DNA from: Nautilus pompilius
Taxonomy: Eukaryota; Mollusca; Cephalopoda; Nautilida; Nautilidae
Length of the DNA stretch: 64,000 nucleotides
Assembly (NCBI GenBank): GCA_018389105.1
Contig: JACATO010000591.1
Coordinates: 3,071,001 to 3,135,000 of the forward strand
Direction of reading: 5' to 3'
Shown one piece after another: positions 17,076 through 55,660 of the stretch; the first letter of the stretch is position 1, and every line of letters begins with the position of its first letter. Position numbers and translations under genes: made by a program. The notes under the pieces are model-generated. The model saw nothing but the letters and a program-made list of their open reading frames with translations. It was not told where the DNA came from and did not search any database.

Positions 17076-20000
17076 CCGAGTGGGTTTTTAGATTAGATTA
17101 GGAGTGATGATGGTACTAATACTTGTGATGCTAGCGGTAGTCGTAGTATCGAGTAATTCCACACCTCATTTACGTATTAATATGTTGTACACAGATGTTA
17201 CAGATATGGAAATTTCTTGGTCCAGAATCGCTAAAAGGTGCACATCTTATGGGAAACGGGAAGGTTTTGATTTATGTACTATGTTCTGGTACTGTCAGTT
17301 GTTACATGAGTGTCACAGACTTTATGAAACATTCATCAGTTGATTTTCACCAGAACATTTGCTGGAAATGTGTTCCTTAGTCAATGATCAGTAGTATCAG
17401 ACAATCAGCAGAACTCTAGATGAGCAATGATGAGATGTTTATTGTGAACAGAAGCATAAGAAACGGATTTATTATGACCACAACAGCAACACATGTAAGG
17501 GATACTAAAGGTTTTCCTTCAAACTAGAGGTCCTATATTACTTCGCAGATGAGAGAGAGAGAACTGAAATAACTGTCGTAAGAGAATGTGTAACAGTAGG
17601 TGTGGTCAAATCAATTACAGTGCCATCTTCACTTTAAGGCCAGGAACCTATATACCTACCATTGTTGTGAGGGATTTGATTTAGCTCATTGTAATTATTT
17701 CTTTGCCATGGCCTAACATGTTGATGAATTTCTCTACAATCAAACGTTTTTTGAGATGCTCTTGGGAGATCCATCCTTAAATGTCAAAATGTACAAAGCA
17801 TGCTTGATGATCTGTAAGCTTCAGTTTTGAAAAATTGGTGCTAGATCCTCCAGCATGAAGAGAAACTTTGGGTTGTATACAACACTGGGGCGACCAAACA
17901 AATTTCCACTTTGGGTATTTGACCCCTATATGGTTTTGGATAGTGTGATGTCATGTAACAATGAACAGTCAGTGAATTCATCAAATGTATTTCTTTCTTT
18001 TCTTTTTTTATTTTTAGGTTATTGCCATCATATAACAGCCTTACTGATAGGCATCTTTCGGACTATTTTTGCAGGCCCCGCATAAGGCGTCATCTTATCA
18101 GGGCTGGACTGGTATGGTGTAAATTTATTTAATAAGCCCTCACCAAAAATAAAAGATTGAACTAAAATTATTTAGAATTGTTTAAAAAGTGTAAAAAAAT
18201 ACTTTTGTCGACTTATTTTTGAATTATGTTATTGTAAATATTAACTGGCATAATGCTTCAAGAAGAAGAATTTTTTAAAGATTAGTATATTTCTAATACT
18301 GAACAAAAAATGAAGAATTTGTTTAATGTAATTTCAGATCAACAGACACCATGAAATAATTTCTGAGGCAGCTTATAAAATGAACATGGTGAGGAAAGAA
18401 CACAAGAGACGCATAAAGCAGATGTTGACAGATGCAGTTGTAACTAAATCAGTAGACTTGGCAAGATGTAAAGAGATGAAACTTCAACGCCGTCTAGAAG
18501 AGATTTCCAAGATTGAGGCAGTAAAGAAAGTCAAGGCAAGAAATAGGTTGAAATTATTTGATACAATTTTTTTACATCGTATGTGGTTGATATATGCAGC
18601 TATCTTGGCTGCATGTGTCTAATACACGCTGTAGATGAAATGTGATGTAACACAGTTATGCAAACAGCATCTTATATTTATCAATTTTTTAAAAAATTTT
18701 TTTTTTCTTCACAGAGTTACTAGATACAAGTTTTAGAGTACAGAACAGTTATGAATGTTTGGACAGAAAAAAGTTGCAAAATTAAATTAAAAGTACTTAT
18801 TCATTTTGGAAAAAATCCAGCCAAGATGATTTTGATCACTTAGGTATCTGTGATGGCTGATAGGAAAATAAATATGTTTGGAATTTTTATTCAGACACTC
18901 CTACCATTAATCTACAGTATATGAAAACTATAATGCTAATGTACTTAGCAGTTTACATAGTTTTGTTCCAATTTTTAAAAAAATTGTATAACTGCAGTTA
19001 AAAATTTTTTTTCTACATGATTCATCTATTAACGTGTCATCTGGTGTTTTTGGTATCTAGTTCTTCTTTATAAGGGTGGTTTTAATTTTAGAAATTGTCA
19101 GTTTTCTAAAGGCTATTTTTAAGTGAGTGGCAGGATGGATCATGTAACTGTTAAATAAAAAACACTACAAATATAATAAAATTATTTCTTGTTTGTTTCA
19201 AAATAATTTGTTTTTGGTGGAAATCAAATTATTGCTCACACCAGGAAATTTTCAACTCTTCAAATAGAATGTATGGGATTTAATGTACAATGTTATTATA
19301 CAAAATTGGAAATTTTCATTGTGTTTTAAACAGTAATATCTTCTATTGTATGAAGCTGAAAAAATATAGAGGATAACTATTTAATGAAGTACACCTATAA
19401 TTTATGTATACAAGCTTTTGTTTAGTTTAGCTCCCAAGAAAAATAACTGCTTATTTATTTGGTTTCTAAACTATTTTAAACTAGCATTTGTAATGTACTC
19501 CATTCATTTACTACTAAAAAGTTTTTTTTATAACATCAAGCCCTGCTGATATTTTAGGCAATTTATGTTGTAGTTATCACCCCTAAATAATTAATTGCTG
19601 TTCTCTGCATGCCTAAGAAATGCTTAATCAGTTGAAAATCTCTCTTAAGTTGTTCAAATGTTCATTTAAAATTCTAGGTAAATGTACTGTTTATCCTTAA
19701 GTGTCTATTCTGGAATCTGGGTTAGTTTAATGGTTCATTTTTTTACCATTCTGTATACTTTAAATGCTTAAAACCTGCATTCTAGAGAATCTGTGCTCAG
19801 CTCTTTCCATGGTGTCTGCAGCGGAGTGGAGAAAGAGAGGACAACTAACCCTCCCTCTGGAAAGTTTATGGTGATAATGTAATGTTGAATAAAAATGTAT
19901 TTTTTTCTAGGTTTTGTTATTGTGAGCTTTGATGGAGTAGCACAATAGCAAAGGAAGTATACTAACATTTAAAAAATTCTAAAGGAATCACAAGAAATAT

Positions 20001-23000: not shown

Positions 23001-26000
23001 GATTAAATATCACTTAAAAATAATTATGATAAGCAAGTTTGCAATCAACTTGAGTTCATGACTCCTAGTCTGGAAATCACTGGATTGTAGCATCTAATCT
23101 TTTTATACACAACTACTGTATTATTGGTTCTACTCCTGTGGATTTCTATTCCAATAATTGTGGAAACTTTCCCACATTTTGATACTTTCAGTAAGCTGAA
23201 CTATTATATATGTGACTGTAATAGTTTCTTGAATAAATGAAATCTAGTACAATTTAATAAATTAATTACACTGGCATCACTGATAAAATAATAGGTAACA
23301 AATCTAGAGAAGTAACTAATATAAATCAATCAAAGGTAATATTTTCTTCAGTATCAGCACAAAACACTAACTGACAACTGTTTACTTTGGTTATTTCACC
23401 ATCTGGAGCAAAACTGATATTCAAAAAGCTTTTCAGTGCATATTGCATGTTTAAAAGACATTGTATATATGGAAACCATATGATTTGATGTTATTTGTAT
23501 GCAATTTTAAGTACTAGAGTGGTTTTATCAGCAAAATTCTAAAAAAGGGTGCTGGAAAACCTTTTCAACATTTTTTCTTAGGATATTATTGGCTAATCTG
23601 AATTAAAAGCATACGCTTTGATATTTTGGAACACCATATGCTATGTTTTTTACTCAAATATTATTAATCTTTTGCAGGATGATAATATGAAAACATCAGA
23701 CTATCAAAATACATATCTGTCATCCCAGGCTGCACATGGCATCTTGGACACTCAGAATTCTCGTCCAGTTAGTGCACCTGAACCTCCCAGTAGTAGTAAA
23801 AAATTTCTGCATTTAGAAGGTTCAAAGGTAAACTCTGCAGGATATTATCATGTTTTTCAACATGAAGTAAAATGGATTTTTTCTTAATAATTGTTATTTT
23901 TAATTCTTATTGCCAGATTTTCACCTTTGCTTAGGAACTGTTCACACACATTTATATATACTCATTCCATATCTTTTTATTTAAAAGCAGACTGATCCAG
24001 TTTTTACTTAAATGCACAATTAAATAATGAATAAAAATACATTGTTATATAATTACTTTGCAAACAAAGACCAAATTTTATTGAATATGTTATTTCTTAA
24101 TTAACAGTTAATGAACTTTGGTATAATGTAGAAAAACATGACATCTATTGACCATACTAAAATAACTAAGCAGAAAAAAATACAGCATAAATTTCTCATT
24201 ATTATTTCACATTCTGAGAAAGTACATTAGTAACTTAAGATATGAACACAATTTTTATATATGCAGGCATGCGCACAGGCACAAAGGAGGAACACCCTTT
24301 TATACTGTAAAAGAATAGGGTTTTCTATTTATGAATTTGTATTAGAAAAGAAAATTTTTTGAAGCAGTTAAAGCCAAAGTTAATGCATTTCTTTTTAAAC
24401 TTTTAATAGCCTAAGCATGGCAGAAAGTTGAAGAAACGAATATTACCGCAATATGTAGTTCGACCAAAGTCTGCTGCAATGCCACAAACACATCCCTATG
24501 GTTATCATCCAGCTAACCTAGCTTTTACACCTCATCCACCAGATTTTCTCAAACCAGTTTATGATAAAGAGGTAAGAAAGACTACAGAGATATGTTTGAA
24601 TTAAAAGTCATCTGGAGATCTATAAAGGGTCTATTTTCATAGTATTGATGCATGTGTGTAGGGCACTGCATTTGGATGAAATCATCAGTCTAAGCCTGGT
24701 ATTGCAGCCTATTTTTATTGAAATACTTGTTTTAAGGTTTTCCTGAAGATAGGTTTACATTTGGTAATTGGGTAGGTTATAGGAGAATTTTAATGCTATG
24801 TCTATTTTTTTTCATTTTTTGTTGCAAAAGCAGTGTTAGTGCACTGTTTTATATGAAAGCACATTTTAATAAGAACCCTAAGCATGGGTGGCATCACAAT
24901 TAGACACATTTTCTGCCTGATAAATTGGAGAATTTTGACTCAAAAGAAAGTTAGTATCCAAAAATCAAAGGTTCTTGCAAATCTCTAATTTAAAATAATG
25001 TGTAACCGTTATTTTGTACCTATCAATGTAACATCTAATTGTTTTGCTGGACCAAAGAGATTAGTTTCAACAGTGTTTGGCTTTGGATAACTATTATGGG
25101 CCTGGCTGGTTTGAAACTAGACTGTTTTTCTGTTGACAATAGATTGTCAATGTAAGTAGTTAAGACTTTACTGAAGGCAACTCTTTTGTATTATGTAATT
25201 AACATAGTAAAAAGACATGTATAAAATTTGCATTCACGTTAAGCTTGTCAGGTTGTCAAAAACGTTTGGGTAATATTATTCAGCTGACTTGATAAACCTA
25301 TAAAAATGATACTCTTCATACTGTAGGATATTAAGATATACAAGTAGCCACTTTGCTCTATTATATATTGATTTGTCATTTGGCAAAGTTTTAATGCAAG
25401 GGAGATAATTTTTAAAATTTGTTTATTTCAAATTAATAATTTCTCTACACTATTTTTAGTAAAGCTAAAAGTTTTTGAAATAAAGAAAATTATAATGTTA
25501 AAACATTTGCTTAGTTTTGGGAGTTATTCATATAACAGCTGGCACAAAAGACTCAACTATAATCTTTAGATAAAAGAAAATCTTCATGAGAAATAATTTA
25601 AAGAATGTTATGATATTATATATACTGTAAATGAAATAGGAGTTTAAAAGAAAAAGTAAGACTATGCTTAAGTGCAAAAAATGATGATTAAAATGGATAT
25701 CCACTAAAATGCTTTTTCATTATAACTTGTATTTATTTGTAATGGTGCTTATTTGAAATTATTATTATTTCTTTAAATCTCTGTGACTGGTGCAATTTTA
25801 ATACATGCTCCAAAATCAAATTGAAAAATTTTATTTTTTTTGCTATAATTTTATTTAACTTATCTAAAACAATTTGATGCAACCAACTTGTATACATTTT
25901 ATTAGAAAGAATATAACTGGTCTTCATAAATCTTTGGACAGGTAGCATGCAGTTCTCAGATTGGATTTTATATAATGTTTCTTGTACATTTGCAATGCCT

Positions 26001-27004
26001 CTATTTATGCAAAAATAAACCTTAACCTTTAATAATTTTTTAGATTTTAAAGGGGTGACACTCTTCTTCCTCTCATTTCATCCTATAAGAACTTTATTAA
26101 AGCCTTTCATAAGTTAAGAAAATAATTCCAAGAGATATAGACATACAATAATTTTAAATATGAAGAAAGACTGAATACTTAGACAGTACATACTGTAACT
26201 ATTTAATTAGAAGTAATAAAGATCTTATGCATTAAAGGTTGCTTGTTAAGAAAAAATACATTTTATTATATTGCTAACTTTATTTTTATCTTTTAAAAAT
26301 TTTATTTCAGATGGACCCAGTGCCTGTTGGAAAAGATGGTACAGCAATTGTAAAAATGAATAATGTTGACACACAAGTTTATCCATATTTATTGGCACCA
26401 ACACCACCCACCTCTCCACCACCAGACACACCACCATATACATCTACTTCACCTAAAAGAACTGTCAGGTCAATGCAGGTTTGTCTTTTCTTATTTTTTA
26501 AAATGTATTTAGTATGTGTATGCATATACTGTGAAAAGAAAGTGACATAAATTTAAAAGCAGTAAATATGTACAATTTTTTTTTTCTTTGTGAACTTTTT
26601 CTTAACTTTGAAGTTTTGAGAACATCTCACAACAGTGAGTTAGAAGTTGGAGATATAGGGCATCAGCCTTGCCTAAAAAGTTACCTGCATATAGTTGGAG
26701 TCTCTTGAGTGGTGATTAAGGTGCAAATCATCCAGGGATTACCTGCAGAATCTCCATCACAAGTTCCCAGTTATCTGTCTATTTAATTGTGGGAGGAAAC
26801 TCACACAAATGGACTGATACAGAGGGCAAGAAGAAACCATGCTGCATGAGGTTGCCAAACCAAGTTGGATCCTGGTAGAAACTGAATTCAGGCCTTTATT
26901 CATGGAAGGCTGATATGCTATGCACATGGGCATCTGCCACCTTTGGTTTATAAAATTTCTAAGAAAAACAAATAAACAAAACAAACAAACACACACACAG
27001 ACAG

Positions 27005-27039
<35 letters not shown>

Positions 27040-30000
27040 AGGATTTGCAAAAATGATCCATTTTTACATAAAAATATTTCAAAATGTTTAATGAAAAGTA
27101 GATAAAAGCTTATATTGTTTTATATAGCATTTGCAGACCCATTTTTTACAAGTAATGAAGGAACTCAATTTGTTTTACTTCTGCAAATGATTATATTTGA
27201 ATCAACATGAGTGGACAACATGCTGGAAGCCTTCCATTGGATAATGGATTTTTTTTAGTAACTTTTAGGTTAGCCGATTAAAGGAAACATCATCAGTCAT
27301 ATATTGAACCTACTTTGATCATGTTTGTACTGTTATCTGTTGTTATGCTGTATATTTGCTGCACACTGATATCATAGTTGTATGTAGTTCAAAAAGCATG
27401 TTCTTGAGATGCTGGGATGCATGTCTTTTGTGGTACACACTGCATTTGCACCATCTTTCAGAAACTGGATGATAGTAGTCAAATAGGGTGATCCAAATGT
27501 GTTGCACAATCAAATTTAAAAGGAAAAGATTACCTTTTACTATGATAGACTGGAAAATGTTATTGGTGACATGTGACTCTTTCTTCCTGATACCATTAAC
27601 ATTAATACACACATTATGACATAAACCTTCAAGAATTGTTCAATTATCTTTCTAAAGCCAGAGTCTTTCATTAATCTGAAAGGTATTTCAAACAGAAGCA
27701 GTTGAACTGTGAACTAGTCATATTTTTAATTGGTTCAGTTATGTTTTGGCTCTATTGGATTATTTTTCTTCCATTCTGATTCAGTTTCAGTTTAGAAAAA
27801 AAAAAGGTTCAAACTGATACATGGGGTTGGTTTGATTTCCTGCTTTTTAATCCAAGCAAAACGTCTTCTGTCTTGGATGATCCTGTGCTGCAATCTTTAC
27901 TTCCTTCCATTTACATTCCATGATTGTTTGTCCTATTGGTTTCTATTTCATCTTTCTCCATTTCTTGGCATTCATAATTTTATACGGCCATCTGATTTTG
28001 AGGATTTGTCAGAGACAGCTGTTTATGGAAACTTGCAGTATAGCTAGGAAGGTTGGTATGTGCCCAAGTTTCAGTCCCATACAATAAGTCACTTTATTTA
28101 CATAAATGTTAGATATTCAAAGTTTTGTTTGAAGGATGAGGGTTTCTTTTTAATTTATTTTTCTATAATAATGCATAAAGTTGCTATTTTTTCAGTTTTT
28201 AAATTTTTCTGTTTAAACCTTGTCTGTTCATATCATAATCTTGAGTCTGTTGCTTCCTTAAATCTGTCCTAGCAAGCACATTCTTGGTATAGACAGCAAT
28301 TAAATGCCCCTCACTGTATGAAGTTCCCTTTCTTCGGTAGTTTTACAACAATATTTTTACCAACTTCTTTCCTCTTTACCCTAACTTGAGATTAGTTAAG
28401 GACATGTAAAGTTGACAATGAAAGTATTCAAAAGTTGTACTGTTGATTTTAAATGTGTGCTAGAATTTCATTTTTTTCTTGAAAATTTATAAGGAAAACC
28501 TTTTAGCATGTCCTTTCAGTATAATTACTTTATGGTAAATTCTTCTGCTTGGAAACTTCTTTTTGAATTTGGATAAACAACTTCTCAAAGAAAAATTGTG
28601 TAGAAAATGAATGTGTTTACCTAAGTCTGAAAGTAGTAAAAGAAGTAAACACTAGTCATGCACATTATTTAGAGAACTGAAAAAAGAAACAACTACAACT
28701 GGTAAAAGTGATGGTCTTGTCATAGAATGCAGAGACAGACTATTTATTCATTTGTGTATGGATTCAGGGACTCAACTAAAAATCACAGAGCTATCTATCA
28801 TTGGGAGAGATAGAGCTCGCGTGCACACACACACGTTTAGAAGTAACGTACTTAAACTGATGGATTTTGAAGCATCTATTTTCAAATTGCTAAAATCTTA
28901 TTATTTATTATTTTGTTATAATAATTTATAAGAATAAATTTTAATGCTTTTGGTTCATAAATAGCTGTAGCTTTGTTGGTATAATCACATATTCTCTAAT
29001 TATTATTTTTAAAGGGATCTATAAATATACAGAAGTACCTTTAGTGTACAAAATATATGAAAGTGGATCCTCTCCAAATATTTAACTGATATTTTTACAT
29101 TCTCTTGTTATTCTATTAGCACTACTATCACAGAGACAAATGCTATTTCTTCAAAGAAAGATTATTTTACAATTAATTTTGTCTGTATTTATATATCTTC
29201 AGAATTTCAAACTTAAAGTTTCTTGAACTATCTTTATTGCTTTGCTTTAAATCCCTATTTTACAGTTTAAGAGAGGTTGTGTATTTATTTATTTTTTTTT
29301 TTTTTCAGGGTCTTCCACTTTCTGACAGACCAGGTGAAAATGATCAAGACTCTGGGTATTTACTTCATCTATAAAAAGATTTGTTTTTAACTAAAAATTT
29401 AGGCTACAAGACTGCTAAGGTTAGAGGCCCAAGTTTGATTCTTGGTTGCCTCAGTTTAGTGTACCTCCTAAGCACTGTTTCTTTTTTGCTCTTCTGCATC
29501 AGCTGCTCTTTTTTTGGCACAGGATACACAATGCTCTCTAGCAACTGATCACAGTACTACACTCCTTCACCAGGGTTGTCTTCAATGTAGAGAAATTATC
29601 TCCAGTGTAGAGTTTGATGTACGACATAACACAATAACAAAATGAAAATGAAAATGACATACATTATTAATAAAGATAAATATACCATAATTATAGCAAA
29701 ACATTTGAGAAAAAAAATCTAAGCACATAAAACATATCATGTTTGCATATACTTTTGTAGGTACACAGTGTACTTATATAATATAATGTACTATAATCTG
29801 GTAATCTGGCTGTAACATACTAATTCTTATGGAGTGATCTTATAGAGGATATCGATATCTAATTCTGTATCTATTAGACTCGTATAGAGTATTTGAAATG
29901 TTCATGTGTTACAAAATTAACTGGTTCAATAATTTAACAAATGACCATATTAGAAGTATATTTGCATATGATATATTATAGACTATTGTGAATGAATAAT

Positions 30001-33000
30001 AAACAAATCAATTTTTTTATTTTTAAAGTTTATTTGTGTTAACAGTTAATGTGTCTATCTTTTTATTTCAGTCTTCTCTTCTCCCCCCCCCACCAAAATA
30101 AGACATACTTTTCATTTCATTTGGTACTGTTGCTAGCTTCTTTCCAGAATATTACTATATTGACTGGTAGTTGGTCACAAAATTTTTTTAACATTCTAAG
30201 AAATTTTCATTTTTTAAAATGAAAGTTAGTTAGTTATGAAAATTGCAGTTTGTATTTTCTCATCTGATGGAAATGCAAGTTTGTCTACATTTTCTAAAGC
30301 AGTGTGACAGTTAAATCTGTACACTGGCAGTACAGTATATTTTTTGGTTTAAAAAAATGGAAAGTTCTTATATTAGAACCATAGTGATAATTGTAAATGA
30401 TATACAAACAAATGTTGCATGAAGAGAATACCCACAATGGCTTAATATTAAAATAATATTTCTTTAGTATCAGAATTAGTAAGTGATTTAAATAGAATTA
30501 ATAATAATAGTTTTTAACGGTATTAACTAGTTTAGTTACTGCATCAGTATGCTGGAAGGCTTGCTTTATTTGTATTAATTAAAATAATAAACTAAACTAA
30601 GGTTTATTACTGTAGGTGACTACTACACTTTAATATTTTATTTTCTTTGGATAACACAACTGAATTTATACTTAGCGTATAGCTGTTGTTTCAAATACAG
30701 ATAGTATATTTTTAGAGAATGACATGTCTATTCTTTTCTGATAATCCTGGCTTTTAGTATTTCACATCTGGAAGTCACATTTGGGTTTGAAAAAGTCCTA
30801 ATGAAGACCTTTTACTGCAGTATTGTCAGTTCATGGTTGAGTTTGGAAGCAGGAGTGTTATGGCATGGTGGATGAATTGGTATTTATTGCAGAACTTCTT
30901 AATTCTGATGGGTACATTGCCACTTAAAAGGGCACATCTCCTACCCCTGTACCAACAAAATACACTGAAATTTGATGCAAATATTTTCAGGAGGATGGTG
31001 CTGCATACTACTAGAAAAGGAAACAAGGCATTCGACTTCTTCCCTGACTACTACACTAGACCCTTAATATGAATCTGATGGAGCACCTGCGAGAGCATCT
31101 GGATTGTCAGCTTAGAGCAACCCATTAATATCCCTCTAATATGATAGAATTAAGGAAAGCTCTCACATGAATATGGTGGAATCTGCCAGAGTGCAATACA
31201 ATGCTAAACATGGTAGAGACTTTTCATATTGTAAACAATGGCTTAACCAAATACTAGCATCAGGAAATTAGCTCTATTGCTCGTCTTTATTTGCTGCTTT
31301 CCAAAACAACTAGCATAATGTAATAACAACAAGTTACCAAGTTATTATGATAAGGCACTGTATAATGCTACTGACTTATTTGATATGATTTTGTTTATTC
31401 CCAGCATTATTAGTTAGCAGTTGAAATATATTTTTCTTCACATTTTGGATTTTTGTTAATAGTGATTCCCATTTTTTTTCTAGTTTAAATTTTCTTATTT
31501 AGTATATGCCATATAATAGTGATTATGATTTACTCACTTTTTGCTTAAATTATTTTACATTTTTACATTTTGAATTCTATTTTTCACTTTTCTGACAATC
31601 TAATAGGTTTTGGTTTGTCTTAAAATTCTCTCTCTTTTTTGTAATAAGTTTAGCATAAATTTCAATTTTAATGTAAACTTTTAAATATTTACATATAACA
31701 CTTTATCAATATCATTTATGCAATCAAGGACAAGAGAGGACCCAAAACTAAACTGTGACACACCATAAGTGACTTTTGCTGTGTATTTTCTAATAAATTC
31801 TTTATCTAAAGTTGGACTGCTGATGCCTATTTCCATATTTTTTTTGTCTTCTATTTGGAACTCAAGAGTTATTTCAGACTTTTTTCCATCACATTAGTAA
31901 TATAACTAGCAATAAACTATTGTTTTGGTATTCATTCTCTATTATTACCAGGATTCTTGATATCTAGATATTATGTTGATTTGATTTGATGTTGACAATA
32001 ACTATTTATTTTGAAATTTTTAGGTTTATTTGTGCTACCTGTAAATCAAGGAATCTAGCATTAGTGAACAAAGGTGTAAACACATACCATTCACAACAGA
32101 AGCCCTTTTCTGATGACCATGATGAAGGTACATATATGTTCAGCAATTGACCAAAAATGTTTCTGAATGAACAATGTTTATTTTTGATTGGCTTTTAAAA
32201 TTATTGTTTTTGTTCTAAAAAAACAGCATCAGTGTTTTATTTTGTTAATCAGTGAAATGTAATTTGAGCAAGATTTTGTTTAAATAACAATATTTTCACT
32301 TTAAATTAAAGCTTTACAGTTTTTTAAATATACTTTATTCCAGTTAGTACTTGAGGAAATGCATGAATAATTTGATCATGTTATTGCATGCTTAAATATA
32401 AATTCCATTGAAAATAGAGCATTACTTAGTGTTCGACAAAAATATGGCAACACCTGTTTAGCAGGCAAAATATGTCATTGAAGTTCATGTTGACAATGGC
32501 TTTCTTCCTGTTTACATATTTAAAGCCTTAATGAGTTCAAGCTAAATGTAAAAATTTAAAATACATGTGCAAAAATGTGATTTCAGTACATAACAATTTA
32601 GTTTTTAGAGAGAAATGGAAAATAAGTGTATCTCAATTCTTCATCATAGTGGAGTTTGTCTCTCTCATATATTTTTTGAACAAGCATTTTGAATTTTGTC
32701 TACCCTGAACAATGAATTGTGGGATTGTTTTGAAAAAGAATTGAAAGTGTAAAAAAAAGATATCTGTTTTGGGTTCGCTGGATGGTTCTATTGGTCTGCA
32801 AGTTGGATGTATTAGTATATTTGTACATGTCCTTTCAGTGAACTGGAGCAATATATTGCTTGAGAACAAATTGTAAAATGTTGTTTATTTTACAGCTAAA
32901 ACTAATATATTCAAAACAAAAGTAATATGAAATTCATTTTACTGATAATATATTTAAAATGGTTTTTGACAGTTTTTTGTGATATGTTAATTTGGTAAAT

Positions 33001-36000
33001 TAAAGCAGGTTTTTTTATATTATTTAATGGTTAAGTAAACAGTTAGGCAAATTTGTAGTGGTTAAGTGTATTATCTTACCATTAGAAGATTTTAAATTGT
33101 TTTGAGTAGTTAAATATTTCTTTATATTAATTATTCAGTACTTCAAGTGATTGAAAGCAAATACTAACTGTCTCTTAGTGAAATAAATTTACTGTTCTGC
33201 TGCATTTTTTTTTTCTTTCTAGAATCATTTCCAAAATCAGCAAGTACTCTTACTGAACAGAATCTTAAAATAATAGACCCTGGAGGAATGCATGATAAAA
33301 AACAACAGACTGATAATGAAATTAAAGCTGAATTGGAAATACTAGGTTCAACAATGGATTTTCAACAGCAAACTGATGAAAATGTGCTTCATACAGCACA
33401 GCAAACTGACAAAGAAACTACAAAAGACATATTAATTATAACACACGATTCTACACAACAAACTGATGGTGATGTTGAAGCAGATAGTGGTGAGGTCCCT
33501 TGCAGTACTGATGATGTATCTTCAGAAAATATACAGTCCAAGCATGAAAAGCACAGTATAGAGAAAGAGATTCTTGGGGTTTGTGATCAAGTGGTTGATA
33601 AAGTATTTAAAGAAATAGTGGCTAAAAAAGAACAGCTTAGTGATTCATCCTATCTGCTACTAAATGACGACAATTTCACTGCTACCATGAGTGCTAAAAA
33701 AATATATGACATTACCCCATGTATTTTTGATAAAAATAAGATATGTGTCAGAACTACCCAGCATATTTATTCTATATCCAATAAAGAGCAATATTCAAAG
33801 TATGCAAAAATCAAAAAGAATGGTGAGTTACATTCAGACTTTCACAGTGATAATTTATATCTCATTCAAGATTCAGGAGATTTACCAGTAGAATTAAATA
33901 CTGTTGTGCAAAAGAAAATAACTGGACCAATCAGTCAGAAAACCATTGTAGGAAAGTCTGTGGAGAATCTGCAGAATGTAATGAAGCGAAGTAGTGATGA
34001 TGACAATTTACAAAATCAACCAATATTAAAACTTACAGCCATTTTGAAACAAACCTCTTTAGAACATTCATATATTCCTCAAAACGAATTCCGCAAACCT
34101 GCTGAAACTATGATGAATAAAGACAAAAGAGAAGAGTCTAAGGAAATGAATATTGATAAAGATTCTGCAGCTTATTTTGATGAAGTAAACTCTGACAAAA
34201 ATATTGATGCAATGTGTGATAGAGGTAGAATTTCAGCTATTTTGAAAAAATCTGATGAAAGCATAGAAATTCCAGTGAGAAAATTCTCAGGTACTGTAGA
34301 GACTATTCCAAACACAAAAAAAAAGAGATTGGTATATACTAATAAAAATTTATTAGAAAATGATGATAAAGCTATATCAGGGTTAAAAAAGGAAGCGACG
34401 ACAAAAGACAGAGACAGTGATGCCATCATCTTAACACAGGAAAAATACTACCAAAATGAAGATGAAATGCAAAAAATACAAAATGTGCCTAATAAATATT
34501 CTAAGCTGGAGTCAACTGATAAAGCAGTAACAAAAGATAATATTAGAGAGATTCCAATTAATCAGATAGACACATTTTCTAATATAGTGGCAAAAGATAA
34601 TATTAGAGAGATTCCAATTAATCAGATAGACACATTTTCTAATATAGTGGCAAAAGATAATATTAGAGAGGTTCCAATTAATCAGATAGACACATTTTCT
34701 AATGTAGTGGCAAAAGATAATATTAGAGAGGTTCCAATTAATCAGATAGACTCTGAAAAGATGCCATTAATGACAGAAAATGTAGATTCTAACAAAATAC
34801 CATTTCAAGATTCTGAGTCTTATCTGAAGCTGGTTTATGATAATCAATATTTATCTGAAGCTGCTGATAAGGAAGTAAGTGTATTACATAGCAATGGATC
34901 AAAATTAGGGACAAAAAATAAAAAAGATGACATTAGTAAAGATGTAGTTGATACATCTTGGAAAGAAAATAATTTAGAGGAACAGCTAATTTATGGTGAA
35001 ACAGATTCAGAGAAGGAAATTCACAGAATTATTCCAATTCAGCAGATAGAAGAGACAAATATTAATATAGATGATGATAATTTGAATTTACCTAAGAAAA
35101 CAGTGAAAACGTTGGATGCCAAAAATAAGCCTCTGGTAAAAGTTACAACTATTTTAAAAAATGTTGATCTTGCAGATATTCCTCAAAATAAGATTGAAAT
35201 GGATAGAGATAAAATGAAATTTGATAAGAGCATGCCTGAAAGTAAAGTAAGTGATAATAGTGAATACAAGTCAGTAAAAGATATCCCTGATTCACAATCA
35301 GAGTTTTTTACTGGTGACCAAGATCTAACAGATGGATGCTATAGGGTGGTTCCAATACATCAGATAAATACAACTGAACTAGAAAGTAATTTAGAAATGA
35401 AGGATTTTCAGGATTTTGAAAAGAAACCTGAGACACAAACAGATGTAGGCAGTAAAGTAGATCTAATACAAGAAAATGGTTTTAAAGTTGAAAAAAAAAC
35501 AACTAAACAACCCACAATGAAAGTTACAGCTAATTTGAAAAAAAAACCTGAAGAAAAGAGTTCAATAAAAGATTCTTTTACCAATGGGCAAAGTGTTACA
35601 AAGGGAATGCATAGAATCATTCCAATTCAAGATGTGGATGGTGAAAAAACTGGAATAATGGACAAATCAGAAATGAAGCCTCTCACTGGTGATCGAGGTG
35701 GTGTTAGAAAAGGAATCTGTAGAGTCATTCCAATTCGAGATGGGGAAGGTATTGTTAGAGATTATATAGTGATCAAAGATGAGTATGAGCTAACAAAACC
35801 AATGTACAGCAATAGTCCAATAGATAATGACTATGAAACAATTGAGGATAAAGTCACAAATTCTGACATAGAATCTATTACTGATACCAATAAAAAGACA
35901 TCTTTTCAAAGTATAGAGTCTTATCTGAAGGAAGTTTATAGTGATCATTGTTTTTTTGGACATAAATATGGTGCAACAATTGGAAAAAATTCCAAGATGA

Positions 36001-39000
36001 ATACTGACATAAGCAGTGATGAAAATATTTCTGATAGCAAGTGTGAGAATAAGCAACACACAATGAAAATCTCATCAGTTCTGAAGAAAACTACAAATGA
36101 TTATGAAGAAATTTTTCAAGTGGCACCTATCAGAGATAGAGAAAATAGCACAGTTAGTGAGGATGAAAAGAAAAATATCAAAGAAAGATGTCAGAAGAAA
36201 GGCAGCAATGAAATACAAGAAACACGGTATTCTGATTCACAAGTTATACAACAACATTCAGAAGACTATGACAAGGGTGACACTAAAAATTCAGTGGTAA
36301 TAATTACATCTGTTTTAAAGAAAAATGATAATGCTGAAGAAATTAGTGGCACCAATTTTAGGGATGAAAAAAAATATGGCAGTGAAGTAGACAGAAGTAT
36401 TCAGATAAAACAGATCTCAGAACTAACTGACGCACAGTATCAAACTGGTAAAGAAAAATCCTCTGAATTTGATACAGCTAAGAATACAACTGTTATACAC
36501 TCATCTATTAGAGACATTCTGATAGAGCAGCCAGGAGCTATATATGAAAAGAGTCAATCATTAGTTGGTTCTGGAAAAAATGCCTTGTATAAGGATCTGG
36601 ATTCACAACAGAACCAACTTGTAGAAATTAAGAAAACTATGAACATTAAAGATGCAGAAATATTGACAACAGAAGACAATGAACCATTTGTACAGAAAGA
36701 TTCACAGATATCTTCAGAAAGTGTAGAATCATATATAAAGCACACTTACAGTAATGTGATTTTATCTAGGATGAAAGATGATGTGAATGAGACAAGTGAC
36801 ATATATAGTAGTGAACCACTGAAAAACAAAGAAAGCGAAAATTCTAAAAAAAAACACCTCAACAGACAGTTTATACCCCAGGATCAATACACTATGCAAA
36901 TTACATCTAATTTGAAGAAAAAACATAGTATTCCTGGAGAAGTCTTTCATCTAGATCCTCCTACAGCTTCAGAAAGAAAACCTGAAGTTATTAACAGTGA
37001 TTTGAAGGATGTAAAGGAAAAAATTCAGCTAAAAGATAGCAAATTACATCAACTTGATCAAAAGGGTCTAAATGGAGTTTCCTCTGATGCAAAAGATGTT
37101 GTGGAGCAATCACCATTGATTAAAATTACATCAATTTTACAGAGAGCTGGAGACATTTCTCAGAATGAAATAAAAGATGTAGAACTTGTTAAAGATACAG
37201 ATAAAAGCAAAAACGTTAGTGGTACTCATTTTGAGGATGAAAAAAAGCATTGCAATAAGGTAGAGAGAAGGATTCAGATAAAACAGATCTCAGAACTAAC
37301 TGATGCACAGTATCAGGCTGGTAAAGAAAAACCCTCTGAATTTGATACAGCTAAGAATACAACTGTTGTACACTCATCTGTTAGAGACATTCTGATAGAG
37401 CAGCCAGGAGCTATATATGAAAAGAGTCAATCATTAGTTGGTTCTGGAAAAAATGCCTTGTATAAGGATCTGGATTCACAACAGAACCAATTTGTAGAAA
37501 TTAAGAAAACTATGAACATTAAAGATGCAGAAATATTGACAACAGAAGACAGTGAACCATTTGTACAGAAAGATGCAGAAAAACAGATATCTTCAGAAAG
37601 TGTAGAATTACATATGAAGCATGTTTACAATAATGTCTTTTTATCTAGGATGACAGAGGATGTGAATGAGGAAAGTGACATATATAGTAGTGAATCAAAT
37701 TTGAAAAACAAAGAAAGCAAAAATTCTAAAAAAAAAATTCTTTACAGTGAATCTGTACCCCAGGATCAATCTGTTATGAAAATTACATCTGTTTTGAAGA
37801 AAAAACGCAGTATTTCTGGAGAAATCCTTAATGTAGAACCTGCTACAGTTTCAGAAGTAAACAGAGAAGTTATTAACAGTGATTTGAAAGATGTAAAAGA
37901 AGAGAGTCAGCTGAAAAGCAGTGAATTACATCATCTAGATCAAGAAGATCCAAAAGCTGTTTTCTCTGATACAAAAGATGATGTGGAGCAATTACCATTG
38001 ATTAAAATTACATCAATTTTACAGAGAGCTGGAGACATTTCTCAGAATGAAATAAAAGATGTAGAACTTGTTAAAGATACAGATAAAAGCAAAAACGTTA
38101 GTGGTACTCATTTTGAGGATGAAAAAAAGCATTGCAATAAGGTAGAGAGAAGGATTCAGATAAAACAGATCTCAGAACTAACTGATGCACAGTATCAGGC
38201 TGGTAAAGAAAAATCCTCTGAATTTGATACAGCTAAGAATACAACTGTTATACACTCATCTATTAGAGACATTCTGATAGAGCAGCCAGGAGCTATATAT
38301 GAAAAGAGTCAATCATTAGTTGGTTCTGGAAAAAATGCCTTGTATAAGGATCTGGATTCACAACAGAACCAATTTGTAGAAATTAAGAAAACTATGAACA
38401 TTAAAGATGCAGAAATATTGACAACAGAAGACAGTGAACCATTTGTACAGAAAGATGCAGAAAAACAGATATCTTCAGAAAGTGTAGAATTACATATGAA
38501 GCATGTTTACAATAATGTCTTTTTATCTAGGATGACAGAGGATGTGAATGAGGCAAGTGACATATATAGTAGTGAATCAAATTTGAAAAACAAAGAAAGC
38601 AAAAATTCTAAAAAAAAAATTCTTTACAGTGAATCTGTACCCCAGGATCAATCTGTTATGAAAATTACATCTGTTTTGAAGAAAAAACGCAGTATTTCTG
38701 GAGAAATCCTTAATGTAGAACCTGCTACAGTTTCAGAAGTAAACAGAGAAGTTATTAACAGTGATTTGAAAGATGTAAAAAAAGAGAGTCAGCTGAAAAG
38801 CAGTGAATTACATCATCTAGATCAAGAAGATCCAGAAGCTGTTTTCTCTGATACAAAATATGTTGTGGAGCAATCACCATTGATTAAAATTACATCGATT
38901 TTACAGAAAACTGGCAGTGACACTGAAGACATTTCTCAGAATGAAATAGAAAATGTAGAACCTGTTAAAGATACAGAAAGAAGCAAAGAATTTAAAGATC

Positions 39001-40970
39001 AATCTGCTATGAAAATTACATCTGTTTTGAAGAAAAAACACAGTATTTCTAGAGAAATCTCTCACCTAGAACCAGCTACATCTTCAGAAGAAAACAGTGA
39101 ATTGTATCAACTTGACCAAGAAGTTCCAGAACCTGTTTTCTCTGATACAAAAGATGTGGAACAATCATCAGTGATTAAAATTACATCAATTTTACAGAAA
39201 ACTGGCAGTGACTATCGAGATGTTTCTCAGAAGAAAATAGTGCTGCAGCCAGAAGCTATATTTGAAAAGAGTGAAACACTATTCAGTTCTAAACTTGATT
39301 CTGGAAGAGATGCCTCATACAGGGAACCAGATTCAGATATATTAACAACAGGTGTTGAAACATCTATAAAGGAAAACGTAGAAAAGATATCCCCACAGAG
39401 TGTAGAATCATATATAAAACATATTTACAGCAAAGTCTACTTATCTTTGTTGACAGAGAGTGAAAGTGAGAAAAGTGGATTATATAGTCATGAGTCAGAT
39501 TTTAAAAACAAAAACAGTGAATATTCTAAAGGAAATATTCTTTACAGTGAATCTGTACCCCAGGATCAATCTGTTATGAAAATTACATCTGTTTTGAAGA
39601 AAACACACAGTATTTCTAGAGAAATCCTTAATGTAGAACCAGCTACAGATTCAGACGTAAACACAGAAGGTATTAACAGTGATTTGAAGGATGTAAAAGA
39701 AGAGAGTCAGTTGAAAAGCAGTGAATTACATCATCTAGATCAAGAAGATCCAGAAGCTGTTTTCTCTGATACAAAATATGTTGTGGAGCAATCACCATTG
39801 ATTAAAATTACATCGATTTTACAGAAAACTGGCAGTGACACTGAAGACATTTCTCAGAATGAAATAGAAAATGTAGAACCTGTTAAAGATACAGAAAGAA
39901 GCAAAGAAGTTAGTGAGACTAATTTTGAGAGTAAAAAAAAGCATGACAGTGAGGTGGAGGGAGCGATTCAGATAAATCATATTTCAGAACTAACTGACAC
40001 ACAATATCAGGGTGATAAAGATAAATCCTCTGAATTTGATACAGCTGAGAATACAACTGTTTTAGACTCATCCAATAGAGATGTTCCATTAGAACAGCCA
40101 GAAGCTATATATGAGAAGAGTGAATCATTCAGTTCTAAACATGATTCTGGAGATGCCTCATCCAGTGATTTAGATTCACAAGATAACCAATTTGCAGGAA
40201 TTAAGGAAACTATGAATGCTAAAGACCCAGAAATATTAACAACAGAAGACATTGAACCATTTATACAGGAAGATGTAGAACAAACATCTCTACAAAATGT
40301 AGAACCATATGTAGAAGATAATGCTCGTAATAATGCCATTTTATTTATGCTGACAGATGGAAATGAGGCAAGTGACATACACAGCAGCGAGTCAAATTTG
40401 CAAGACAAAGAAAAGAAACATTTTAAAAGAAAGATCATCCACAGTGAGTCTGTACCCCATGACCAATCCGATATAAAAATTATATCTGTTTTGAGGAAAA
40501 CACAGAGTATTACTGATGAAATCCTTTATTCAGAACCTGTTATAACTTCAGTAGAAAACAATGAAGTTAGTAATAGTGAGTTGAAGGATATAAACAAAGA
40601 AAGTCAGTTAAAAGACAGTGAATTGCATCAAATTAACCAAAAATTGCCAGAAGTTTTCTCTGATACAAATGATGTGCAACAATCACCAGTGATTGACATT
40701 GCATCAACTTTACCAAAAACTGGCAGTGACTGTGGAGACATTTCTCAGAATGAAATAGAAAATGTAGAATTTGTTAAAGATACAGAAGAAAGCAAAAAAG
40801 TTAGTTTCACAAATTTTGAGGATGAAATGAAAAACAATATAGTCTTAAGTGAGTTGAAAGACAGCAGTGAACTAGATCAAACACACAATTATGAAGGTGA
40901 TGATAAACTCAATCATGAACTCTCTGATGACTCTACTTCTGCAGCTAATCCGGCTGTTCCAAACATCTAG
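16854..40970 (+). CDS. ERICH3: ERICH3-like gene (nine coding exons, predicted 2,896 aa)
   Basis: Coding exons: 16854-16873, 18018-18111, 18338-18535, 23678-23827, 24410-24571, 26311-26478, 29309-29355, 32024-32127, 33223-40970. Phases agree at every junction and the sum, 8,691 nt, divides by three. The identification rests on the N-terminus: GLLPSYNSLTDRHLSDYF and RIRRHLIRAGLI parallel the vertebrate ERICH3 start, and exon 3 continues the same helical, lysine-rich region. Vertebrate ERICH3 is a glutamate-rich protein linked to primary cilia. Residues from about 315 onward form a huge acidic and lysine-rich repetitive tail with no folded domain seen. The DUF4590 domain found in vertebrate ERICH3 is not visible. 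A CxxC pair (CATC) occurs in exon 8. Orthology is well supported at the N-terminus only; the tail is lineage-specific as far as I can tell. Confidence 0.85.
16874..18017 (+). other. Intron 1 of the ERICH3-like gene
   Basis: Begins inside the CpG island with GTGAGT and ends TTTATTTTTAG. No other gene seen. A short GA run lies near 17550-17562. Confidence 0.65.
18018..18111 (+). CDS. ERICH3: ERICH3-like exon 2, conserved N-terminal block
   Basis: Flanked by TTTTTAG and GTATGG. It encodes LLPSYNSLTDRHLSDYF then CRPRIRRHLIRAGL, the most conserved part of the ERICH3 family and the main basis of the gene call. Confidence 0.9.
18338..18535 (+). CDS. ERICH3: ERICH3-like exon 3, charged helical region
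   Basis: Acceptor AATTTCAG. It begins INRHHEIISEAAYKMN, matching the family's GLI-x-x-x-x-x-I-S-E-x-x-Y-K-x-N pattern. No GT donor follows the family-like end KKVK. The best donor there is GC (AAG then GCAAGA at 18536). A GT donor at 18521 (GCA then GTAAAG) also keeps phase 0 but drops five residues. Confidence 0.85.
18538..21381 (+). other. Intron 3, first part
   Basis: AT-rich with no exon recognised. The remaining part of the intron holds hAT copy 2. Confidence 0.55.
21382..23082 (-). mobile_element. hAT DNA transposon copy 2, heavily decayed, antisense in intron 3
   Basis: On the minus strand, in N-to-C order across several frames: FAFQADNCTKNHDANFLAYVS (first Asp region), VVTHCVIPQKQLVSKDLSKV (the HC-x-I-H-x-x-x-L-x-x-K-x-L region of ZBED hATs), LNELNA-like coil, then DEYPSLS and ALKVVVPFATIYLREAGFSS, the hATC block with its EAGFS. 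It ends AISTTKSNFEAV with a stop at 21384-21382. The right edge, read inward, is CAGTGATTTCCAGACTAGG, a typical ZBED-hAT terminus, followed by GATTGTAG at 23083-23090. The left terminus was not found. Many stops show it is long dead. Its terminus differs from copy 1, so it is a different subfamily. Confidence 0.8.
23091..23677 (+). other. Intron 3, last part
   Basis: AT-rich, ending TTAATCTTTTGCAG. Nothing else seen. Confidence 0.55.
23678..23827 (+). CDS. ERICH3: ERICH3-like exon 4
   Basis: Acceptor CTTTTGCAG, donor GTAAAC. Fifty codons, phase 0 at both ends. It encodes a serine/proline-rich linker containing SRPVSAPEPPSSSKK, comparable in composition to the linker at this place in vertebrate ERICH3. 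Confidence 0.85.
24410..24571 (+). CDS. ERICH3: ERICH3-like exon 5
   Basis: Acceptor TTTTAATAG, donor GTAAGA. Fifty-four codons, phase 0 at both ends. Basic then proline/aromatic-rich sequence (GRKLKKRILPQYVVRPKSA; HPYGYHPANLAFTPHPPDF). No known domain recognised. Confidence 0.85.
24572..26310 (+). other. Intron 5
   Basis: GT-AG intron, AT-rich, nothing recognised inside. Confidence 0.65.
26311..26478 (+). CDS. ERICH3: ERICH3-like exon 6, proline-rich
   Basis: Acceptor TTTTATTTCAG, donor GTTTGT. Fifty-six codons, phase 0 at both ends. It encodes GKDGTAIVKMNNVDTQVYPY followed by APTPPTSPPPDTPPYTS, resembling the proline-rich stretch that precedes DUF4590 in vertebrate ERICH3. Confidence 0.85.
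26640..27037 (+). repeat. SINE-like repeat copy B with simple-repeat tail, in intron 6
   Basis: Shares GTGGGAGGAAAC, AAGAAACCATGCTGCA and CCAAACCAAGTTGGATCCTG with copies A and C. The 3' side runs into CAAA, CA and AG microsatellites (AG run at 27009-27037), as expected of a SINE tail that seeded microsatellites. Confidence 0.65.
27038..29308 (+). other. Intron 6, remainder
   Basis: No exon recognised. I looked here for the missing DUF4590 segment and found no paired splice signals around a coding stretch. Confidence 0.5.
29309..29355 (+). CDS. ERICH3: ERICH3-like exon 7 (47 nt)
   Basis: Preceded by a long T tract and TTTTTCAG and followed by GTATTT. It encodes GLPLSDRPGENDQDS and two bases that join exon 8. 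The phase (0 in, 2 out) fits both neighbours, which supports this small exon. Confidence 0.75.
29395..29625 (-). repeat. SINE-like repeat copy D, reverse orientation, in intron 7
   Basis: Reverse complement of the family. AGACTGCTAAGG matches the copy-A 3' block, and GGTTGTC...AAATTATCTCC matches the GGGAGATAAT...GGCAACC block at the 5' side of copy C. Strongly diverged. Confidence 0.5.
30800..31240 (+). mobile_element. Tc1-like transposase remnant in intron 7
   Basis: Across three frames, in Tc1 order: FGSRSVMAW, LILMGTLPLKR, LKFDANIF, FQEDGAA, LNMNLMEHLREHL and MIELRKAL. These match the Tc1 blocks GGGSVMVWG, FQQDGARPH and SPDLNPIEHLWD-type. The frame is broken many times. No terminal repeats were sought successfully. 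Confidence 0.75.
32024..32127 (+). CDS. ERICH3: ERICH3-like exon 8
   Basis: Acceptor TTTTTAG, donor GTACAT. It enters with one base and leaves with one base. Encodes GFICATCKSRNLALVNKG and an acidic end. The CATC pair is the only CxxC in the protein I noticed. Confidence 0.8.
32128..33222 (+). other. Intron 8
   Basis: AT-rich, ending in a T-rich tract and TTTCTAG at 33222. Nothing recognised. Confidence 0.65.
33223..40970 (+). CDS. ERICH3: ERICH3-like giant terminal exon (2,582 codons)
   Basis: Acceptor TTTCTTTCTAG. The exon stays open for 7.7 kb and ends NPAVPNI with TAG. It codes for a hydrophilic protein rich in Lys, Glu, Asp, Ser and Ile, with no signal peptide, membrane segment or known domain. 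Three short modules recur: K-[IV]-T-[SAT]-x-L-K-K (about 18 copies), S-x-E-S-Y-[LI]-K-x-x-Y (about seven) and P-I-x-Q-I or I-Q-I-K-Q-I (about thirteen). Four QQTD motifs stand at codons 6-60 counted from the ATG at 33288, and a TQTD lies near 35436. From about 36377 the exon is a set of long in-frame duplications. Base use is as AT-rich as the flanks. A codon-preserving open frame this long shows selection for protein, whatever its function. Confidence 0.9.
33303..33467 (+). repeat. Cluster of four QQTD motifs (LC8-like sites)
   Basis: KKQQTDNE, FQQQTDEN, TAQQTDKE and STQQTDGD occur with their Thr at codons 8, 29, 40 and 59 from the ATG at 33288. The Q-T anchor followed by Asp resembles dynein light chain LC8 recognition motifs, which often come in tandem in disordered tails. 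Binding is inference. Confidence 0.5.
34530..34751 (+). repeat. 60-bp tandem repeat, 3.7 copies (20-aa unit)
   Basis: The 60-bp unit encodes KDNIREIPINQIDTFSNIVA. The copies differ at only a few bases (attcc/gttcc, aatata/aatgta), so they arose recently. The array stays in frame and multiplies the P-I-x-Q-I module. Confidence 0.95.
36377..40800 (+). repeat. Long in-frame duplications of about 291-306 codons
   Basis: The anchor TCAGATAAAACAGATCTCAG starts at 36401, 37274 and 38156, giving periods of 873 and 882 bp. A diverged form starts at 39968. A block of about 180 bp at 38811-38990 recurs without difference, 918 bp later, at 39729-39908. All periods are multiples of three. Unit order is IQIKQISELTD, EQPGAIYEKS, SYIK/HMKH, MKITSVLKK, SELHHLDQ, IKITSILQ, SQNEI. 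The unit between 38990 and 39967 is rearranged: a partial unit precedes a fuller one. Confidence 0.95.
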
Positions 40971-44674: not shown

Positions 44675-47600
44675 CTGAAAATAAATTTTAAAAAAAATTT
44701 TCTTTAGAAAATTAACGATCTTAGTTTCATATTTTAAAGATTCTAAAATATGATCTCTTTATCATAAACAAAAAAGCATTCCATATAAGCACCCACATTT
44801 GAATTAATGTGTATCATATGACTTTAATTTGTCCCAAAGATATCCAACAGTGAACAAATCAAGCATTCTTTGGTCCATAAATAGTTGATACATAACTCTG
44901 AAAAATGTTCTGAATAATGTAACATCTTACTTTAAAAATTCAATCTTTGGTCAAAAATGATACAATCCTAATGTTATGGAATGATGAAAAAATACCATAA
45001 TCTCCATTTTAGTGGATGTCTCCAATAGAACCCCTGTAAAACATTCCAAAACTATAACCTTTCCTCCTTGATGATCCACAAGGGAGATAATATCCTTACA
45101 AGAGAGGCAACCCCGGTAAGAGATGTGGTGGTGTAGTTATTCACTAGAAAGTGTTCTCATCCTTTGTCACGAGGGGTCCACAACTTTCCACTAGCAGGGA
45201 AATCTCTACTAAAACTCTTCATTTTAAGATGTGGAAGGAAACCCATGTGGCTGGTTAGTAGAGTGAGAAGAAACTACACCTGGCAGGTACCTCAAATCAA
45301 TTTGACCCTAATCAGGAATGAAATTTGGAACAAGGTCCATCAGCCTTGGCAGTCCAGTAGTCTAAACTGGCCCTCTGGTTGCCTCTCTGAAGTGTTTATT
45401 TTGATTTCAACAAACACATGCTCTCCATTTGGATATAAACAGTTCAAATGGATATCCATTTATCCACAGTACCAGACATGAACTTGACTCATTTTAGCCT
45501 TTATTTGTTTTAGTAGTAATTTGGGGCAACAACAAGACAAAAAATTCTGGTAAATGATACCTGATAGTAATAGAGGAGGAGCTATTAAGGCCTGCAATTA
45601 ACTGAGGAGTGAGGTGGTTTTGTTTTCTGAAAGTTGTTACTGCTGGTTTTTAACTGAAGTAATTTTTTCTTCAATTTCAATCCTCCCTATAGAAGAATTC
45701 ACCACTAATTCTCTCAGCTCAAATTCTAACTTAGGTCTCAGCCATAAGAGTCTCATCTAACTGTTATACTATAACAGAGATTTGTCAGCATCTAGCAGGC
45801 TACTCAGTCACATTAAAAATTCTGACATGTTCACACATGACCTCATTATTCCGAACAATGAAACAATAATAATAAATATATTGTAATTATTTTGTAATTT
45901 TGGTGGAAAATGTAAATAGACAAAACCCCAATATTATCATTACTATTGTTTTGAACATTATTAAATATGGTGATAACCGACAAATATACCATTGCCTAGC
46001 ATAGATATACAGTGCCCTGCCATAATTTTTTTGTAACCAGTTGCTATTACAATGTTAGTTTGTTGTAGGAAATAGCAAATGAAGACAAAAAATAGATAGA
46101 GTTTCCTTTAATTTTATTATATTGGTGTTTCTCTCCACTGATGATATTGGTGCTCAAAGAGGTGCTTGCTTTGTTGGATTCATATCAGGGCTTGGGGTAT
46201 TGAGGGAAGAAGTTGACTGTCCTGATTTCTCTTCCAGTGGCAGCATGTAGCACCATCCTTGTGAAGAATATTGACATCAAATCTTAGTATGTCTGTTAGT
46301 ACAATGATAAATGTATGCAGGCATACGTCTAGCAACGAAGTGGATATGTTCACAAAATCCACCTCATTCTTAGAAACTTTGGTGTCAGAGGTAGTTTCAA
46401 AACGAGGTGAATAGGAATAGGTTCCAGTCCTTTGCATACTGTACAAGATGTACAAGTCCAATAAATATAACATCATAAACTATTATTGTAGATACACAAC
46501 TTCAATAAAAAAGAAAAAAAAATACAATCACCAGTGATTTGCATCACTATGTTTACCTCCATTGCATATCTTTGCTTCGACTTGGCAACGGTGGATGAGT
46601 GTTGCTAACTGTGTGGTGAGCCGCCAGGATCCCAGTTTGATGGGCCTGGCTCTGGTTCTTGTAGTTGCTGAACAGAGGACTTCTTTTTGACCAATGCATC
46701 AAGTGTTGACTGTCTTGCCTTCTGCCACCTTTCTTGACAGCACTGCTGTATTCCCAGTCTGGGTCATGAGTCGAGAAGGCCTCTATTGCATACATCATGA
46801 TCTTTGCAATACTTTCAGACAAAAATTTTGTAGTTAACACTTTTTCTGGCATCTCATTGGCAACTGGGTCTTGTTCATCTTTCATTGGCTGTTCCTGTTG
46901 TGTTAGTTCTTGCAAATCTTCATTGGTAAGTAACTCCTCATCAATCAAGAAGCTCTTGCACATCATCAATGTCTACTTTATCGAATCCTACTTCCTTTGC
47001 TAGTTTAACATCATTTTTAATTGCTGGCATCTTGGTCTCAAAGCCAGCAAAGTCATTGACATTTATCCCGCTTGTCACCTCTTGCCAGGTGTCTTTGATG
47101 TTATCAATTGCTTTCATTATGTTATAAGATTTTCAAAAATCTTTGATTGTCTGCTGCTGTTCATCCATCACAGGCCTTGATAAGCTGAATAATGTGTGCT
47201 TCAGATAATATTTCAAGGTTGTAATGACATCTTGTTCCATGGGTTGTAGGATAGATGTTGTATTCGGAGGAAAAAAGACAATTTTCAGGGTGACCAGGGG
47301 CATTTTCTAAAAACCAACAATGCTTAGGTTCATGTCCCCTTTTGTGACAATAAAGTTTGACAGTTAGACAAAAGTGATGGATGAACCAGTCACGAAGAAC
47401 ATCCATCATTACCAAAGTCTTTATATTTGCCATCCAGATAATTAGCAAATTGTTTTTGGAGAGCACTTTCATCGCCCATGGTCTTTGAGAATGATAAATG
47501 AGAAGAGGCTTAATTTCAAATCACCTCAGGCATTTTTGCCCTGCACCAGGGTGAGATCTCTAGCAGCCATAAATCCAGGTGCATGTTTCTCTGCTCTGGC

Positions 47601-55551: not shown

Positions 55552-55660
55552 ATCCTGTTTTTCCACCCTCTTAAGATGTATGGTGTGCAAAAATTTGATT
55601 AACAAATAACTTTGCACACATCCAGTAATTTGCAATGTGCAAGTTTTTTCAAGAAACATC
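55552..55660 (+). promoter_or_regulatory. SLC41 5' leader with two upstream ORFs
   Basis: After the acceptor at 55551, an ATG at 55576 opens an eight-codon uORF that ends at 55602. A second ATG at 55635 opens a twelve-codon uORF ending at 55673, overlapping the main start at 55661 in another frame. Such uORFs usually lower translation of the main frame. Confidence 0.65.

Follow-up and report, generated by a model that had tools for sequence, protein, structure and literature searches.

A giant exon encoding a modular, probably disordered repeat tail in an ERICH3-related gene of Nautilus pompilius

A single exon that holds thousands of codons open raises the questions of whether it is real, to which protein it belongs and what role, if any, its repeats play. 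Such an exon lies on the plus strand of the stretch of Nautilus pompilius DNA analysed here (64,000 nucleotides, hereafter the window), and an earlier note on this DNA described it as a modular repeat tail on an ERICH3-like protein. The reading that we favour, with some but by no means full confidence, is that it codes for the extended and probably disordered C-terminus of an ERICH3 paralogue without DUF4590, a tail with a multivalent docking role and grown by in-frame duplication.

The existence of the exon is clear. The plus frame is uninterrupted from 33168 to 40970 (2,600 codons) and, because a pyrimidine-rich splice acceptor has its last base at 33222, the start of the exon was placed inside a codon, at 33223. 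The giant last exon (33223..40970, +) thus opens with two bases of a split codon, continues with 2,581 codons up to the stop TAG, and is followed on its 3' side by an AATAAA poly-A signal at 41759. Base composition gives a chance of about 10^-99 for 2,581 open codons, and the other two plus frames contain 204 and 368 stops across the exon. The open frame, the acceptor and the chance estimate together bear out the original description of 33223..40970 as long and open. The tail is rich in S (11.4 percent), K (11.2), E (10.0), D (8.9) and I (8.3), has no tryptophan and carries a net charge of about -142. Glutamate ranks after S and K, although the glutamate-rich criterion of ERICH3 has no defined threshold.

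The link to ERICH3 comes from two exons farther upstream, which match a second locus in the same genome, C294. Exon A (18018..18111, +), which has AG/GT boundaries and reads LLPSYNSLTDRHLSDYFCRPRIRRHLIRAGL from 18019, is identical to the matching C294 exon at 17 of 28 residues (tblastn E 1.6e-5 within 27 kb, for a query differing from the true sequence at one residue). Exon B (18338..18535, +; INRHHEIISEAAYKMNMVRKEHKRR...), preceded by an AG acceptor, shares 37 of 66 residues, its 198-base length and its phase with C294:205484-205681, and at E <= 0.1 it is found in only two places in the genome, the window and C294. The donor of exon B at 18535/18536 is likely GC (AAG/GCAAGA) and that of the C294 copy is GT. 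We take the stretch encoded by exons A and B to resemble human ERICH3.

C294:180315-206800 (minus strand, loci L004-L008) also belongs to the ERICH3 family; two of its exons hold DUF4590, an acidic stretch lies farther on, and the locus has the look of this genome's canonical ERICH3. Both matches to DUF4590 (PF15257), the Pfam domain characteristic of ERICH3, in the 727.6-Mb genome lie there (81 and 27.8 bits; seven candidates scored). In the window, a Pfam scan of 16000-33223 in the three plus frames, with stops read through, did not find this domain, while a comparable scan recovers half of it at C294 (23.5 bits). With DUF4590 undetected in the window, the gene there is best regarded as an ERICH3 paralogue, seemingly devoid of that domain, rather than as canonical ERICH3; kinship through exons A and B is thus upheld, but not identity with the canonical gene. 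Conversely, no tail module was found at C294 with module and unit profiles in 1,104 frames of at least 25 amino acids on one strand of 90 kb, where the lowest E values were 0.37 and 0.78.

Four probable plus-strand exons lie between exon B and the giant exon. Exon C (23678..23827, phase 0-0) is open, is in phase with D-G and was placed by splice-site and codon score; exon D (24410..24571, phase 0-0) and the proline-rich exon E (26311..26478, phase 0-0) have splice sites, are open and are in phase; and the 25-base exon F (29309..29333; GLPLSDRP), which has a strong acceptor score and a GT donor, has a phase that suits the codon split at the start of the giant exon. Joined to the latter, C-F give 2,750 codons interrupted by the final stop only. 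Exon E bears a weak by-eye likeness to a C294 exon, for which tblastn gave no support. As tblastn finds no counterpart at C294 for any of C-F, these exons are assigned to the gene by splice sites and phase. The gene model may miss exons between B and C, and we infer from splice phase alone that the giant exon and exons A and B are in one transcript.

The gene has varied neighbours. A single-exon BTB-BACK-Kelch (KLHL-type) gene of 599 open codons occupies 5048-6847 (+), with Pfam Kelch, BTB and BACK all above cut-off, and broken frames at 9142-10718 (-) resemble, on visual inspection, the remains of a hAT/ZBED transposase, three pieces of which have no Pfam match at E <= 0.01. On the other side, a relic at 47164-47520 (-), whose resemblance to DDE_1 is weak (0.00021, 21.3 bits, cut-off 22), is probably a transposon of pogo/Tigger type, to which 46553-46972 (-) may also belong, and a 162-codon frame at 55610-56098 (+) resembles by eye the initial coding exon of a transporter of SLC41 type, with no Pfam match. 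Elsewhere in the genome, which comprises 727,640,739 bases in 2,558 contigs, two loci have seven matches each to mollusc haemocyanin (14 in all), which makes an arthropod origin unlikely; seven units per subunit are typical of Nautilus and Octopus.

Within the tail, three short modules recur, counted in the earlier note as about 18 copies of K-[IV]-T-x-x-L-K-K, about seven of S-x-E-S-Y-[LI]-K-x-x-Y and about thirteen of P-I-x-Q-I / I-Q-I-K-Q-I (hereafter KITS, SESY and PIxQI modules). These numbers hold for relaxed consensuses but not for the motifs as written, which occur 5, 3 and 10 times. Over the 2,581-aa tail, compared with 200 shuffles, the strict K[IV]TxxLKK count of 5 stands against a shuffle maximum of 0, and a relaxed KITSxLKK pattern matches 15 times (shuffle mean 0.03). 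Once three degenerate copies are added by hand, there are 18 KITSxLKK-like cores spanning 34029-40718 (+), at tail residues 269, 335, 639, 766, 948, 1026, 1225, 1300, 1519, 1594, 1813, 1888, 1930, 1985, 2119, 2194, 2418 and 2491, in which L is invariant (18/18) and is followed by K-K in most copies. By-eye sorting gives two recurring flavours, ...QSVMKITSVLKKK..SI..EI and ..QSPLIKITSILQKT...DISQNEI. For SxESY[LI]KxxY, a looser pattern raises the strict count to six, and a profile search adds a seventh SxESYxK-like copy, SESYLKLVY, near 34810; the ten strict matches of the third module are six PIxQI and four IQIx[QH]I, and a looser pattern finds 13. Same-composition shuffles yield hardly any of these modules, and the description as a modular repeat tail is correct. 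The tail also has four copies of QQTD within its first 81 residues (27, 48, 59 and 78; 33303..33467, +; shuffle mean 0.04), each in surroundings unlike those of the others and absent from the earlier note.

Repeat finding, which that note had suggested, revealed much of the architecture behind these counts. A tandem array with a period of 60 bp (20 codons; 3.7 copies) at 34531..34751 (+) encodes REIPINQIDTFSNIVAKDNI, and long repeats farther on are spaced 873, 882, 918 and 897 bp, each of these five values being a multiple of three. The long repeats form a recent array (36387..40868, +) of five long units and a partial one, all on the plus strand: U1 (36387-37259), U2 (37260-38141), U3 (38142-38990), the partial U3b (38991-39236), U4 (39237-39953) and U5 (39954-40868). 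The unit profile scores the long units at 379-562 bits and U3b at 83. Only 20 of 837 aligned bases are different between U2 and U3, and U3 and U4 show no difference over their final 159 aligned bases, a near-identity such as might be seen after recent unequal exchange or conversion. The recent array grew through duplications with multiple-of-three spacings, and its copies have recently been homogenised.

How far back this organization goes is less simple. An older unit, U0 (35826..36386, +), recognized by profile match and containing SIESYLKEVY, KISSVLKK and IITSVLKK, aligns in module order to the recent unit within tail residues 877-1045 (24 bits, 1.1e-9) and has 28-34% identical residues with the recent units. 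With S for SESY, K for KITS and P for PIxQI, the modules in the 5' part of the tail run KKPPPPSPKPKPPSKPK, which contains one S-K-P against 0.41 expected, a number equalled in 37% of 5,000 shuffles. The claim that the order SYLK, KITS, PIxQI repeats even in this diverged part is therefore not confirmed, there being no excess over chance, and of the ancestral composite unit that was deduced from it there remains one older unit in order, U0, but no repeating order in the 5' part.

The tail is probably disordered, since an AlphaFold model of U2 with six aligned units has a mean pLDDT of 43.4 and a pTM of 0.13, with no residue at or above 70, and 208 of 254 tail windows fall on the disordered side in a charge-hydropathy analysis. 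Vertebrate ERICH3 (C1orf173) has been reported to be ciliary and tied to retrograde IFT, its loss leading to shorter cilia with IFT proteins piled at the tip (PMC6848114), and has been linked to clathrin and vesicles as well (PMC8141066). The Nautilus protein would, like vertebrate ERICH3, be located in or near cilia, and its short hydrophobic-basic modules may be peptide docking sites; if they are, the tail would therefore act as a multivalent tether or scaffold, in which the number and spacing of docking sites would outweigh their exact sequence.

The main competitor, to which we give appreciably less credence, is neutral lengthening, in which a disordered tail tolerates in-frame duplication and the modules are functionless relics of recent shared ancestry. 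Comparison of dN/dS between copies, as the earlier note had proposed, was run on the units (Nei-Gojobori, 21 pairs) and gave 0.50-0.98 in 19 pairs, the remaining two having values of 1.55 and 2.24; constraint is therefore weak throughout, which suits this explanation. So does the finding that modules in the recent units are conserved no better than linkers (1.69 vs 1.76 different residues per column for 58 module vs 235 linker columns, permutation p 0.31), as well as the decay of the last unit (DIASTLPK, NVEPYVEDNA). Against it stand the frame open across 2,581 codons, the L of the KITS core kept in 18 of 18 copies and the six KITS copies outside the recent array (residues 269-1026), which retain the core in mostly unlike surroundings, their flanks having little in common. 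U0 has kept 17/38, 16/38, 19/38 and 12/38 module residues with respect to U1, U2, U4 and U5, vs 35/137, 38/139, 34/127 and 41/141 linker residues, although its better-kept modules are partly circular evidence because modules were defined by recurrence. That the giant exon is instead a separate gene outside the ERICH3-like gene, starting for example at ATG 33288, is unlikely: the first ATG of the tail is indeed at codon 22 and the exons are joined by no direct evidence, but there is a good splice acceptor at 33222 and the phases fit from 23678 to 40970.

If the modules are docking sites, calcineurin is the one partner that we would put first for the PLIKITSIL-type copies, although this is a lead only. 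KITS copies beginning P-x-hydrophobic-K-hydrophobic-T would then be PxIxIT docking sites and the tail a calcineurin scaffold, a multi-site anchor in a cilium-related protein, which we nevertheless consider improbable. In its favour, a strict PxIxIT pattern matches five times (shuffle mean 0.88, maximum 4 of 300), QSPLIKITSIL has 7 of 11 residues in common with the NFATC1 peptide ESPRIEITSCL, and the top 13-residue tail stretch scores 28 against that peptide, a value reached in 1 of 200 shuffles. In addition, P1, I3 and I5 are reported as the buried residues of the motif (PMC6728138), and calcineurin has been described to bind the PxIxIT site of the centriole protein POC5, its inhibition resulting in longer cilia (PMC10163345). 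However, recent copying of one ancestor accounts for four of the five strict matches, only 8 of the 18 KITS copies have P and the most constant residues (L, K, K) fall outside the PxIxIT core. Moreover, a relaxed pattern is equalled by shuffles (7 matches; mean 2.54, maximum 7), there is no enrichment of calcineurin's second motif, LxVP (2; mean 1.41), and the top four places of the POC5 peptide in the tail contain no KITS copy. As for NFATC1, its own peptide was reported near the detection limit in one binding assay (PMC6728138) and the comparison with it was post hoc, chosen once the motif was seen. Slightly more doubtful still is a scenario in which a cephalopod ERICH3 paralogue dropped DUF4590 and became a many-site calcineurin anchor; NFATC1-like PxIxIT peptides, multiplied in-frame within one giant exon, would concentrate the Ca2+-controlled phosphatase at cilia, and the number of copies would set the affinity. 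A PP1 docking array, in which S-[IV]-L-K would serve as a SILK-like site and KKVSF, close to the end, as an RVxF site, is the least credible of these proposals. A loose [GSAT][IV]L[KR] pattern matches the tail ten times (maximum 4 of 300 shuffles, mean 0.67), and KKVSF is present once, in the last unit only (tail residues 2524-2528, about 40794-40808), but strict SILK ([GS]IL[KR]) has 0 matches and the RVxF pattern gives two overlapping matches on that single KKVSF site vs 1.68 in shuffles. Candidate peptides for docking of calcineurin or PP1 include SPLIKITSILQK and SVMKITSVLKKK.

Several other partners were considered and discarded. LC8 (DYNLL) uses a TQT anchor and deviations such as RQT are reported not to bind (PMC6607443), and binding by the QQTD cluster was therefore rejected because its anchor is QQT; true TQT occurs once in the tail (residue 735; 0.53 expected). 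An AKAP-like amphipathic helix for SxESYxK was ruled out by the hydrophobic moment of six copies (permutation p 0.078-0.85); the best-scored helix in the AlphaFold model does sit at a SESY module (U2 residues 112-135, block pLDDT 56-58). The clathrin box, AP2 DPF/DPW, NPF, SxIP and LxxIxE motifs are not enriched in the tail vs shuffles, and a WH2/thymosin likeness of LKK found no such Pfam match for the tail at E <= 1.

The assertion that no described family has this module set was tested in part and agrees with everything searched. The tail matched no Pfam family above cut-off, Pox_P21 (0.012) and Yos9_DD (0.25) being weak matches below their cut-offs that we take as chance, and found nothing in PDB sequences at E <= 1. 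With a module peptide, a designed repeat protein in PDB was matched through TGS-D-DIS (0.00064 for the whole sequence, with no single stretch significant), which we regard as compositional, and the two PDB matches of the N-terminal exons (0.046 and 0.85) are at chance level. In its own genome, the whole frame matched only itself at E <= 0.01 and an 88-residue piece gave 10 matches at E <= 10, all within the giant-exon frame; among viral contigs, none of 46 pattern matches was confirmed. Literature on ERICH3, among the matches listed, and on DUF4590 yielded no description of the tail, and no mollusc literature on 'glutamate-rich protein 3' was found. As far as searched, the module set is new, while in-frame expansion of a disordered tail is ordinary in kind.

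If the model of a docking tail on an ERICH3 paralogue holds, a branch of a little-studied ciliary family has lost the one domain that bears a name and gained in exchange a tail grown from repeats, with a canonical copy persisting elsewhere in the genome. The array offers differently aged copies within one gene, useful for understanding how docking motifs arise and decay and, were the calcineurin lead true, nature would here have provided a PxIxIT scaffold with many sites, tying Ca2+ signalling to ERICH3-type proteins.

Judged through C294, the window gene is like ERICH3 in two N-terminal exons with matching boundaries (17/28 and 37/66 identities) and in a large tail rich in charged residues, and unlike it in that this tail is a single giant exon with modules not found at C294. 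The likeness of QSPLIKITSIL to the NFATC1 PxIxIT peptide amounts to the 7/11 residues given above, whereas, unlike the NFATC1 and POC5 peptides, the window modules have P in 8/18 copies only and a conserved L-K-K beyond the core. Giant exons encoding repeat-expanded disordered tails are familiar from the ankyrin giant exons and RPGR ORF15. The modules of the window tail are unmatched by sequence in PDB or in Pfam above cut-off, but in general terms the tail would share with such exons one long exon, low complexity, in-frame repeats and multivalency.
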